Part shown: positions 22,947-27,102 of the stretch, one piece after another
Layout: each line of letters starts with the position of its first letter
Position numbering within the stretch: position 1 is the first letter of the stretch
Assembly: GCA_018263335.1 (NCBI GenBank)
Contig: JADFCY010000009.1
Location: 20,554-84,553, forward strand
DNA: 64,000 nt
Source of the DNA: Methanolinea sp.
Lineage (GTDB): Archaea; Halobacteriota; Methanomicrobia; Methanomicrobiales; Methanospirillaceae
Reading direction: 5' to 3'
The notes under the pieces: model-generated
Database searches by the model: none
What the model saw: the letters and a program-made list of their open reading frames with translations, nothing else
Told to the model about the DNA's origin: nothing
Made by a program: the position numbers and the translations under genes

Positions 22947-23351
22947 ATGAAAGACGGGCTGCTGACGGATCGGCAGAAGGAAGTCCTGCGATACAGGAAG
23001 CAGGGGCTTACCCAGCAGCAGATTGCAGATATCATTCACACTTCGAAGGCAAACGTCTGTACCATCGAGAAATCGGCAGTGGAGAACATCAACAGGGCGA
23101 AAGAGACACTGGAGTTCCTGTACACGCTGGATGCCACCCACCTCTGCAATATCCCCGCAGGGACAGACCTTCTTGATGTCGCAACCCTGATCTACCAGGA
23201 AGCGGAGAAGATGGGCATCAAGGTGAAGTACGATACCATCTCGCTTATCAACAAGATGCGGGATTCTGCACCGGAACGCTTCAAAGCCCGTTTTGTGAAG
23301 GAAAATATCGCGGTATACATCAACGAGGACGGGGAGTTGTACTTCGGATAA
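22947..23351 (+). CDS. tfx: Tfx-family DNA-binding regulator
   Basis: 134 residues. Tfx of Methanothermobacter binds downstream of the fmdECB (molybdenum formylmethanofuran dehydrogenase) promoter. The helix-turn-helix is residues ~5-45 ('LTDRQKEVLRYRKQGLTQQQ', 'IHTSKANVCTIEKSAVENI') and the remaining ~85 residues form the acidic/mixed Tfx C-terminal domain. The ORF track runs far upstream from 21945, but that part is the antisense shadow of mtd; the real start is the ATG at 22947. Divergence from mtd suggests it may control mtd or itself. A TTCGTT-TAACGA near-palindrome at about 22826 lies in the shared region. Confidence 0.82.
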   Translation: MKDGLLTDRQKEVLRYRKQGLTQQQIADIIHTSKANVCTIEKSAVENINRAKETLEFLYTLDATHLCNIPAGTDLLDVATLIYQEAEKMGIKVKYDTISLINKMRDSAPERFKARFVKENIAVYINEDGELYFG

Positions 23352-23378: not shown

Positions 23379-23390
23379 GATTTATATTCA
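23379..23390 (+). promoter_or_regulatory. box A upstream of the structured region before rpl3
   Basis: GATTTATATTCA is a good archaeal box A, predicting a start near 23411. It is the only convincing TATA box I see in the 584 bases before rpl3. Confidence 0.55.
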
Positions 23391-23410
23391 TTTCCCTCGT
23401 ATAATAAAGG

Positions 23411-23900
23411 AAGCCTATATGAGGTTCCATATGCGCCCCGGCACCAGGTGCCAGGAGATGGAGGCTCATCAAAGGTCGGGGGCACGAGTCCTTCTGGGCC
23501 CGTGCCTTTGTATGAGTATGTGGTGAGCAATCACCACCGGATGACACGGTGGATCTGAAAGAGGCGAGAAGGGCGGACGTATCCTCTGGGATATGAGCCC
23601 GGTACCGGGCCCGGGGTGGCCGGTACACGCCCGTTTCAGGATCTCTTTCGCGAGACAGGTCACAGGGGAGACGGCCAGGAACCAGAGAAAAGGCCGCCTT
23701 TCCGGGGTACTGCACCAAAAGAGGGGATCTCCCTCTTCGCACCGCTGCGGCGATGCCCCGGGTGCCCGGACAGATTCCAGGCATCCTTCTTTGGGCACCG
23801 GCATGCCAGCGGCCCGGAAACATCACTCATATCCGGTGTACAATCGGCCGATATTAGGCGAGTGAAACCGATTAGGTTCGGTTCAGGCCATGAAATGGCC
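23411..23900 (+). ncRNA. candidate structured RNA or long leader of the ribosomal-protein operon
   Basis: A ~490-base stretch without a credible ORF but full of inverted repeats. They include GGCACC-A-GGTGCC (23440-23452); a long stem CTCAT/CAAAGG/CACG with CGTG/CCTTTG/ATGAG (23465-23516, bulges of 6 and 1); GTGGTGA-GCAA-TCACCAC with a GNRA loop (23520-23537); AAGAGGG-GATCT-CCCTCTT (23719-23737); GGTGCCC...GGGCACC (23761-23799); AACCGA...TCGGTT (23866-23883); and GGCCAT-GAA-ATGGCC (23886-23900). It could be a free RNA or an untranslated leader. I found no SRP RNA helix 8 motif and no RNase P core motif. Confidence 0.45.
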
Positions 23901-23935
23901 AACGTTCCAGTCATTAGTGCAGGATTGATTGAACC

Positions 23936-24949
23936 ATGCCAAAGATAAACCAGCCAAGAAAAGGATCCCTTGCCTTCAGTCCCCGCAAGAGGGCCAAGAG
24001 CCCGGTACCGAAGTACCAGTCCTGGCCTTCCTACCAGGGGAACCCGATACTGCAGGGCTTTGCCGGCTACAAGGTAGGCATGACCCACGTGATCATGGTC
24101 GACGATCACAAAAACAGCCCGACCGAGGGCAAGGACATCATGGTCCCTGTCACGGTCGTGGAGATCCCGGCGATGAAGGTCGCCGCGATCAGGGCATACG
24201 GCAGGGACTCCTACGGCAAGCACCCCATCATCGAGGTGTGGGCAGGGGACCTTGACCGCGCCCTGGAGAGGCGGATCACGCCACCGAAGCAGTATGACGG
24301 AGAAACCGCAAAAGCGGTGATAAAGGACGCGATTGCGAGGGGCATCGTCGCAGAACTCTTTGCAGTGATGCATACCCTTCCACACGAAGTATCAGGCGTT
24401 CCAAAGAAAGTGCCCGAGATCATGGAGATCAGGGTTGCCGGGGGTTCGGCCGAGCAGCAGTTCGCGTTCCTCGAGGGCCTGCTTGGAAAAGAAGTCGACT
24501 TAAAGAGCGTGATACAGCCCGGTGCATACGCGGACATCACGGCCATCACCACCGGAAAGGGGACCCAGGGCCCGGTGAAGCGCTGGGGGATAAAACTCCG
24601 GAAGCGCAAGCATTCCCGTGGCGGGAAGAAGCGCCACGTGGGCAACCTGGGGCCATGGAACCCCCACCACGTGCGCTGGCAGGTCCCCCAGATGGGACAG
24701 ATGGGGTACCAGCAGAGGACCGAGTTCAACAAGCGCATCCTCAAGATCGGGGAGAATGGAGCCGAGATCAGCCCGGCAGGCGGATTCATGCACTACGGTG
24801 TGCTGAAGAACCCCTATGTCCTGATCAAGGGCTCGATCCCCGGCCCGGTCAAGCGCCTGGTGCGCATCCGCCCCGCCATGCGGCAGGGCGAGCACGTGGT
24901 CAGGCAGCCATCGATTGAGTTCGTGAGCGTGGAGAGCAAGCAGGGGTGA
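23936..24949 (+). CDS. rpl3: 50S ribosomal protein L3 (uL3)
   Basis: 337 residues, first gene of the S10-type ribosomal operon. The basic N-terminal '[15 protein letters not shown]' and the loop '[28 protein letters not shown]' (residues ~203-230), which reaches the peptidyl-transferase centre, are typical of archaeal uL3. No strong ribosome binding site or close box A precedes the ATG; transcription may begin ~525 bases upstream, ahead of the hairpin-rich region. It is followed after 7 bases by rpl4. Confidence 0.97.
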
Positions 24950-24956
24950 GAGAGCG

Positions 24957-25703
24957 ATGAAAGCACAGGTATTTTCACTCGACGGATCGGTCGCAGGGGA
25001 GATCGAACTCCCGCCGGTGTTCACTGAAGAGTTCCGGCCTGACCTGATCAAGAAGGCGGTCATCGCCCTTCAGAGCACACGACGCCAGCCCCACGGGACA
25101 TACCCCTATGCCGGCATCCTGTCCTCTGCGGAGAGCTGGGGATCAGGGCGCGGCGTGGCGCAGCTCCCGAGGATCAAGGGAGGTTCCCGGGCCGCGAAGA
25201 TCCCGCAGGCCAAGGGTGGCCGCGAGGCGCATCCCCCAGTAATCCAGAAGGTCCTGGCCCGCCAGATCAACAAGAAAGAGAAGCAGAAGGCATTCCGCTC
25301 GGCGCTTGCCGCAACGGTATGCGAAGACCTGGTAAGGTCCCGCGGGCACGCCTTCTCATGCCCCGTACCCCTCGTGATGGAGGACCGCTTCGGCGAGCTC
25401 GGCAAGACGAGCGAGATCATCTCGGCCCTGGCCGCGGTGGGCGCACTCCAGGACGTGGAGCGGGCGAAGGCGAGCAAGAAGGTCCGTGCAGGACGCGGAA
25501 AGATGAGGGGCCGCCGCTACAAGCAGAGGAAGAGCCTCCTGATCGTGACCGCGGACGCGCCCCTTCGGGCGGCAGGGAACCTTGCCGGAGTGGATATCGC
25601 GACGGTTGACCAGTTGAACTGCGAGCTCCTTGCACCGGGGACTCAGGCCGGCAGGCTTACCCTCTGGACAGAGAGCGCGCTCAAGAGGCTGGGAGGGCAG
25701 TGA
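24957..25703 (+). CDS. rpl4: 50S ribosomal protein L4 (uL4)
   Basis: 248 residues. Archaeal L4/L1e: N-terminal 'AQVFSLDGSVAGEIELPPVF', the tunnel-lining loop 'RGVAQLPRIKGGSRAAKIPQAKGGREAHPP' (~residues 60-92), and a basic C-terminal half. GAGAG-type purines precede the ATG. Second gene of the operon, 7 bases after rpl3 and one base before rpl23. Confidence 0.97.
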   Translation: MKAQVFSLDGSVAGEIELPPVFTEEFRPDLIKKAVIALQSTRRQPHGTYPYAGILSSAESWGSGRGVAQLPRIKGGSRAAKIPQAKGGREAHPPVIQKVLARQINKKEKQKAFRSALAATVCEDLVRSRGHAFSCPVPLVMEDRFGELGKTSEIISALAAVGALQDVERAKASKKVRAGRGKMRGRRYKQRKSLLIVTADAPLRAAGNLAGVDIATVDQLNCELLAPGTQAGRLTLWTESALKRLGGQ

Positions 25704-25704
25704 C

Positions 25705-25953
25705 ATGGTGCTCCGTTACCCGTTCGTCACAGAGAAGGCCATGATGATGCTCGAGAACCAGAACAAGCTGCAGTTCATGGTGGACAGCAACGCCACAAAG
25801 AACCAGATCAAGCGGGAGATCGAGCGAACTTTCGAACAGGAAGTCACCCATGTGTCCACCATGATGGCCATGGATGGCAGGAAGAAGGCGGTAATCAGTT
25901 TCGCGAATGAGAAGGCGGCCGAGGAGATCCTCAGCCGGCTTGGCATCATGTAG
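25705..25953 (+). CDS. rpl23: 50S ribosomal protein L23 (uL23)
   Basis: 82 residues, normal for the archaeal protein. It sits at the exit tunnel and is part of the docking site for SRP and chaperones. I start at ATG 25705 ('VLRYPFVTEKAMMMLE'); the longer track ORF starts inside rpl4. The stop is followed directly by the rpl2 ribosome binding region. Confidence 0.96.
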   Translation: MVLRYPFVTEKAMMMLENQNKLQFMVDSNATKNQIKREIERTFEQEVTHVSTMMAMDGRKKAVISFANEKAAEEILSRLGIM

Positions 25954-25962
25954 GTGGGGAAG

Positions 25963-26679
25963 ATGGGACATCGCATTACCACACAGAGCCGGGGGAAAGG
26001 AGGTCCGACCTACCGGGCTCCCTCCCACCGGTACAAGGCCGCACTGCGGCACGTGAGCAGCGGCGAGAGCACGGTGCGCGGCCGGGTCGAGGATATCGAG
26101 CATGACCCGGCAAGGCACGCCCCGATAGCCCTGGTGAGGCTCGAGACCGGGAGCAAGGTCTACATGCTGATCACCGAGGGAATGGGCGTCGGCGACAGGG
26201 TCGCATGGGGACCGGAGGCCGAGATAAGGAACGGGAACACCCTTCCCCTGGGCGAGATCCCGACCGGGACCTACGTCTGCAACATCGAGGCGCAGCCAAA
26301 CGACGGAGGCAAGTTCGTCCGTTCTGGTGGCGTCCAGGCGGTCGTCGTCGACAAGAGCGAGGGCCGCGTGGGTGTCACCATGCCGAGCGGCAAGACCAAG
26401 TGGTTCAACGATCGCTGCCGGGCGACGGTAGGGATCGTTGCCGGCGGAGGCCGGGGAGAGAAGCCCTTCGTCAAGGCTGGAAAGAAGTACCACAAGATGC
26501 GGAACACTGCATCCAACTGGCCCCGCGTCAGGGGTGTTGCCATGAACGTGATCGACCACCCGTTTGGCGGTGGAGGACATCAGCACCCTGGGCGGCCGAA
26601 GACGGTCGCAAGGGGCACCTCCCCCGGACGGGCGGTAGGGCACATGGCAGCAAGGAGAACCGGGCTTTCGAAGAAGTGA
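25963..26679 (+). CDS. rpl2: 50S ribosomal protein L2 (uL2)
   Basis: 238 residues. Binds 23S rRNA domain IV and is needed for subunit association and peptidyl transfer. Conserved 'GHRITTQSRGKGGPTYRAPSHRYK' start and C-terminal 'NVIDHPFGGGGHQHPGRPKTV' are seen. ATG 25963 was chosen over the GTG at 25954 because the family begins M-G-H-R and GGTGGGGA sits just upstream. Confidence 0.97.
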   Translation: MGHRITTQSRGKGGPTYRAPSHRYKAALRHVSSGESTVRGRVEDIEHDPARHAPIALVRLETGSKVYMLITEGMGVGDRVAWGPEAEIRNGNTLPLGEIPTGTYVCNIEAQPNDGGKFVRSGGVQAVVVDKSEGRVGVTMPSGKTKWFNDRCRATVGIVAGGGRGEKPFVKAGKKYHKMRNTASNWPRVRGVAMNVIDHPFGGGGHQHPGRPKTVARGTSPGRAVGHMAARRTGLSKK

Positions 26680-26688
26680 GGGAAAAAC

Positions 26689-27102
26689 ATGGCAAAGAAG
26701 ACACAGAAGAGACTTCCAAGGCGGCGCGAGGAGTTCACCTACAGGGGATTCCGGCTTGATGACCTTCGCGCGATGGGAAGATCCGAGCTGATCCCGCTGA
26801 TGCCCTCCCGCGCCCGCCGCAAGGTGATTCGCGGCCTGACCCGAGGCGAAGAGCACCTCCTCACCCAGTTCCGGAAAGGCGACGGGGCCATCCGGACCCA
26901 CCTGCGTGACATGATCATCATGCCCGAGATGGTGGGAAGTGCGGTGGAGATCCACAACGGCAAGGAGTTCGTGAAGGTCGAGCTGCAACCCGAATCCCTC
27001 TTCCATTACCTGGGCGAATTCGCCCTCACGAGGAAGAAGGTGAGCCACGGGAGCGCCGGTATCGGTGCAACCCGGTCGAGCAAGTACGTGCCGCTGAAGT
27101 GA
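26689..27102 (+). CDS. rps19: 30S ribosomal protein S19 (uS19)
   Basis: 137 residues, the longer archaeal/eukaryotic form. The core motif '[26 protein letters not shown]' and the tail '[25 protein letters not shown]'-like segment are typical; it binds near the decoding head and contacts the A-site finger. Ten bases separate it from rpl2 and seven from rpl22. Confidence 0.97.
   Translation: [137 protein letters not shown]

Follow-up and report, generated by a model that had tools for sequence, protein, structure and literature searches.

A structured RNA core, embedded elsewhere in a methyltransferase coding sequence, lies in a probable regulatory leader of an archaeal ribosomal-protein operon

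The window analyzed here, a stretch of 64,000 nucleotides from Methanolinea sp. (contig JADFCY010000009.1), contains a long gap upstream of its ribosomal-protein genes, and we consider it likely that this gap is a leader with a conserved, once dual-coding RNA core that controls the operon in cis. On this reading, the rpl3-rpl4-rpl23-rpl2-rps19 operon would have a 5′ leader of ~530 nt, in which the core occupies positions 23515-23656. In most of the other Halobacteriota sampled, the same RNA is embedded in the coding sequence (CDS) of a PF02598 gene located directly upstream of rpl3, where one sequence serves both protein and RNA. In Methanomicrobiales, the gene has largely been lost, and its promoter and 5′ end seem to have been kept together with the RNA core as a noncoding leader. 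If this is true, a regulatory RNA has outlived its host gene.

All the features described below are on the + strand of the window. The gap extends over 584 nt between the stop of the upstream neighbor tfx at 23351 (gene at 22947..23351; PF14601 TFX_C, E = 4.4e-33) and the ATG of rpl3 at 23936. Profile matches in the window give the order of the operon downstream of the core RNA, i.e., rpl3, the first gene after the leader (23936..24949; PF00297, E = 2e-89); rpl4, which encodes the ligand predicted in the literature (24957..25703; PF00573, E = 2.2e-37); and rpl23, rpl2, and rps19, the remainder of the operon examined (25702..27102; PF00276, PF03947/PF00181, and PF00203). No ORF with a homologue was found in the gap, where the PF02598 remnants are fragments below significance. 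The fold of the region 23405-23935 reaches −225.9 kcal/mol versus −202.0 ± 6.7 kcal/mol in dinucleotide shuffles (z = −3.59, 0/100). The description given in the original prediction, a 584-base gap without ORF and rich in hairpins, is confirmed. The same gap recurs across Methanomicrobiales, either flanked by tfx and rpl3 or simply located 5′ of rpl3. Four loci of a single genus (g6 of family f1; L070, L092, L104, and L105) have the core and rpl3, and no tfx was found adjoining the leader there.

The conserved core (23515..23656), homologous to RF03135 and to a segment of the PF02598 coding sequence, is made of five helices, P2 to P6. P2 (23520..23537) is the hairpin GTGGTGA-GCAA-TCACCAC, whose GNRA loop had already been spotted as a GCAA tetraloop and proves to be real, with compensatory change in 7/7 pairs. 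P3 (GATCTGA / TCAG-g-ATC; 23552..23643), which contains a bulged G and encloses P4-P6, is paired in 95.7% of the alignment cells, and its CTGA/TCAG part is nearly invariant. Inside P3, P4 (23563..23631) joins GGCG at 23563-23566 to CGCC at 23628-23631 and shows compensatory change in 7/7 pairs across the order; P5 (GGGC..CGTA / TATG.A.GCCC; 23571..23600) is paired in 99% and 92% of the cells, with compensatory changes in its inner helix; and P6 (23602..23626) is a variable hairpin (GTACCGG / CCGGTAC) in which 7/7 pairs are again compensated. Using a 141-position covariance model (R1) built from ten cores of family f1, we found exactly one match in each of 100 loci upstream of rpl3, from six Methanomicrobiales families (E from 3e-39 to 2e-3). 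In the R1 alignment, 93% of the cells pair, a share inflated by the fitting of the core alignment (A4) to the structure, so that the controls (75% when shuffled, 32-43% when the registers are slid) weigh more than the raw percentage. The covariation score of the core alignment is 0.43 versus 0.14 for shuffled and about 0.05 for slid alignments, and 29 of the 35 core pairs show compensatory change on both sides among the 100 loci. The stems, whose conservation had been set as a test of the original prediction, are thus kept in close as well as in distant relatives. RNAalifold applied to a plain MAFFT alignment (A1) gave only P5 because the variable P4 and P6 were misaligned, which was overcome by starting from a seed alignment whose structure was set by hand.

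A further helix, P1, probably closes the structure at long range by pairing TATGAGT (23511..23517) with ACTCATA (23825..23831). Other pairs occupy this position elsewhere, namely CCGAGA/TCTCGG (about 37 loci), ATGTCGA/TCGATAT (7 loci), and GTATGAGT/ACTCATAT (3 loci). P1 is recurrent yet significant in no single locus and is hence termed probable only. Two clade folds also showed long-range pairing of the linker between P2 and P3 with a strand located downstream, a helix that was unsupported across the order (median p 0.46).

What is this core related to? RNase P RNA (RF00373) and SRP RNA (RF01857) were rejected as candidates, both being located elsewhere in the genome. The Rfam search of the window, also proposed at the outset, gave no match even at E ≤ 10; in particular, the gathering score of RF03135 (L4-Archaeoglobi), 34.5 bits, is not reached, and relatives of the same genus score 32.0-33.9 bits against this cut-off. 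Since the RF03135 model misses the window core, the homology link runs through relatives and through a second model, R2, which was built from Methanomicrobiales cores including the window's own and with which we scanned 394 genomes of the phylum. R2 matches were found in 146 of them, many genomes being without a match, which the strict filters may not fully account for. The window core (G000:C47:44068-44209; E = 2.7e-18) is the sole match in its genome. Each of the 146 genomes has one match except G223, which has a second one at a contig end: the core and tfx are found there on two contigs, C65 and C67 (L148/L149), the second being cut at its end, and the second copy is probably an assembly duplicate. 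Seventeen R2 matches were fetched, 15 of them from outside Methanomicrobiales, and in 13 of these 15 loci RF03135 is placed on the same bases as R2. RF03135 itself matches 224 of the 394 genomes, among which are Haloferax volcanii and many Methanomicrobiales but not the window's genome, and its matches in Methanomicrobiales fall at the same places as the R2 core. At two loci (L136 and L145), the R2 match to the core falls within PF02598 and RF03135 stays below threshold; the family range is thus wider than Rfam's. Judged by these sequence comparisons, the window core is a homologue of RF03135, a distant version that lies beyond the reach of the Rfam model. The type of this RNA is therefore not wholly unknown, even though the Rfam model does not detect the window.

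RF03135 was published for Archaeoglobi only and rated borderline (Eckert & Weinberg 2020, PMC7247131), and Rfam 15 then gave it three additional covarying pairs (PMC11701678). The present data extend this motif to much of Halobacteriota and give it strong support from covariation. The window RNA shares with RF03135 its position upstream of the rplC-rplD operon, the P3-P6 core, and overlapping matches. It differs from it in two ways: P2 and long flanking domains are added to the core, and it is a noncoding leader instead of being part of a coding sequence.

In the loci sampled outside Methanomicrobiales, the core sits within the ORF immediately upstream of rpl3. This ORF is PF02598, Methyltrn_RNA_3, a putative SPOUT RNA methyltransferase (E = 1.6e-65). 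The core is in frame within it in all of the 38 coding loci examined (35 outside the order and 3 inside), at nucleotides ~290-480 of the matched coding region, and it is homologous to the codons for V-G-S-D..W-V-D-V..V-R-I-S-S-R. We compared the pairing of these stems with that obtained when the codons of each gene are permuted among synonymous positions, the pairs being taken from one haloarchaeal sequence (L142) and placed via the protein alignment, not a structural one. Pairing amounts to 82.5% over all sequences versus 63.4% after permutation, and, with one sequence per family, to 82.0% versus 63.1% (sd 1.6, 0/1000; z = 11.7). Codon-shifted registers give z from −2.4 to +4.3, and some of them also beat their null (z 3.4-4.3), far less than the true register does. 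The non-haloarchaeal group alone gives z = 11.5. Synonymous codon choice in PF02598 thus favors the RNA stems, i.e., synonymous sites are under selection.

In Methanomicrobiales, the PF02598 gene is absent from 117 of the 119 genomes that are at least 90% complete, the two exceptions being G031 and G040; the window's genome has no PF02598 match at E ≤ 10. A further genome, G127, also has the gene. G031, G040, and G127 carry an intact gene at this very locus, with the core inside. Their three proteins form one clade (support 100/100) and share the P2-bearing stretch, which fits vertical inheritance of the gene. These genomes come from families f2 and f3, both of which include gene-less members as well; if the database families are clades, PF02598 would have been lost at least three times independently in the order, as read from the family labels.

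The core, for its part, is retained in 97/97 gene-less loci from six families. Could it be a decayed remnant of PF02598 that no longer has any function and whose apparent structure reflects past coding conservation? A faint collinear protein similarity to PF02598 does persist at the core (HMM positions ~115-163), and the window core is homologous to codons of this gene. But the window reading frame is gone, and in the gene-less loci the frame is broken, with in-frame stops in 67/93 and with about half having their anchors out of frame. A core kept in every one of these loci, with compensatory changes in most of its pairs despite a broken frame, makes a functionless remnant extremely improbable. 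We rather lean toward an RNA regulator that arose, or was long maintained, inside the methyltransferase CDS and was freed several times as a noncoding leader. Nature has here run a rare experiment: the gene has disappeared repeatedly and the RNA structure within it has survived. The roles of the RNA and of the protein can thus be told apart, and the main ribosomal-protein operon emerges as the likely target of control.

The same survival bears on a further reading, in which the methyltransferase encoded by PF02598 was the original target of regulation by the RNA, perhaps through resemblance to the enzyme's rRNA substrate, and the position before rpl3 is incidental. The element does lie inside the PF02598 gene in most of the phylum sampled, and the 3′ tail of the core, GCGAGACAGGTC, superficially resembles GUGAGACAGGUC of the 23S rRNA. 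However, the RNA is still there in genomes that lack the gene, and the core model gave nothing convincing in loci spanning 23S genes: the best R1 match, obtained with filters off, has E = 0.49, and no rRNA mimicry was seen. We thus regard regulation of the methyltransferase as a very unlikely origin of this RNA. The GAGACAGGTC tail also brought to mind the peptidyl-transferase region of the 23S rRNA; mimicry of this region was rejected, as local alignment, under scoring too lax to be informative, did not rise above shuffles and the core model gave no convincing match at 23S. Imitation of the rRNA binding site is frequent, and not obligatory, in ribosomal-protein leaders.

Where does transcription of the leader start? 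The box A TTTATATTC (23389..23397), which the original prediction had rightly singled out as a good one, is, from its sequence, the presumed promoter of the leader and of the ribosomal-protein operon. It is followed, at the expected transcription start, by a conserved 5′ element, GGAAGCCTATATGAGG (23409..23424), which is nearly identical just 3′ of box A over much of Methanomicrobiales, with clade-specific divergence in families f4, f5, and f6. In G040 and G127, this element also precedes PF02598 in its intact form; hence, the leader has apparently taken over both promoter and 5′ end from the dead gene. A TTTATA box is found upstream of the core in 80/97 gene-less loci and between the core and rpl3 in only 1/97. 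The window has none in the latter interval, in agreement with the early remark that no strong promoter is visible nearer rpl3.

The location of these boxes also helps to choose between the two options that had been left open, a free RNA and an unusually long regulatory leader. A free-standing noncoding RNA placed before rpl3 and acting in trans would suit a large, highly structured, single-copy RNA, and it could possibly be processed from the leader. However, in all the loci examined across the phylum, the core immediately precedes rpl3 and shares its strand, the promoter-like boxes are essentially only upstream of it, and, in the coding taxa, the element belongs to an mRNA. Moreover, T6 runs follow the core in only 2/97 loci and thus give no sign of a separate 3′ end. 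A trans-acting RNA is therefore unlikely, and it is the long regulatory leader, with a core linked to rpl3 and a box upstream, that comes out as the better supported option.

Indeed, rpl3 is the constant same-strand downstream neighbor of the core in every locus examined across the phylum. Taken with the boxes upstream of the core and with the survival of the RNA without the methyltransferase, this constancy points to cis control. By this leader mechanism, the core would bind a product of the rpl3 operon, L4 being the literature's guess, and the expression of the operon would be lowered when the bound protein is in excess. In the coding taxa, if this is correct, translation of the upstream gene would compete with the folding of the regulator. 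A leader within the CDS of an upstream gene is unusual for regulators of this class. Sequestration of the rpl3 start region was tried as a candidate and was no better than chance (median p 0.49). The assignment of L4 to RF03135 is a prediction, made because L4 is a known ligand of bacterial leaders (PMC7247131). Going by that description and by general background, the window RNA is comparable to the L4-binding leaders of bacterial S10 operons: a structured leader precedes an equivalent operon (L3, L4, L23, L2, and S19), which is probably controlled in cis by one of its own products. Known cis-regulatory RNAs are very few in archaea (PMC7247131).

On both sides of the core, the leader contains other structures. 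Within the genus clade, the consensus fold gives a 5′ hairpin domain (ATGAGGttcc .. ggagATGGAGGCTCAT; 23418..23467) with 6 covarying pairs and, at about 23477..23511, a long bulged hairpin, GGGGGCACGAGTCC-TTCT-GGGCCCGTGCCTTTG, with 15 bp and 8 covarying pairs in 11 genomes; the long bulged stem noted from the sequence at the start is thus a real one. Just 3′ of the core, many species of f2, f4, and f5 and part of f1 have a hairpin with a recurrent loop, GGTGCACACC (CCGG-TGCACA-CCGG), which is absent from the window's genus. At 23664-23739, the window has two more strong hairpins 3′ of the core, of the GGGGAGACGGCC../GGCCGCCTTTCC and GAAGAGGG/CCCTCTTC type, which show covariation within the genus and differ between families.
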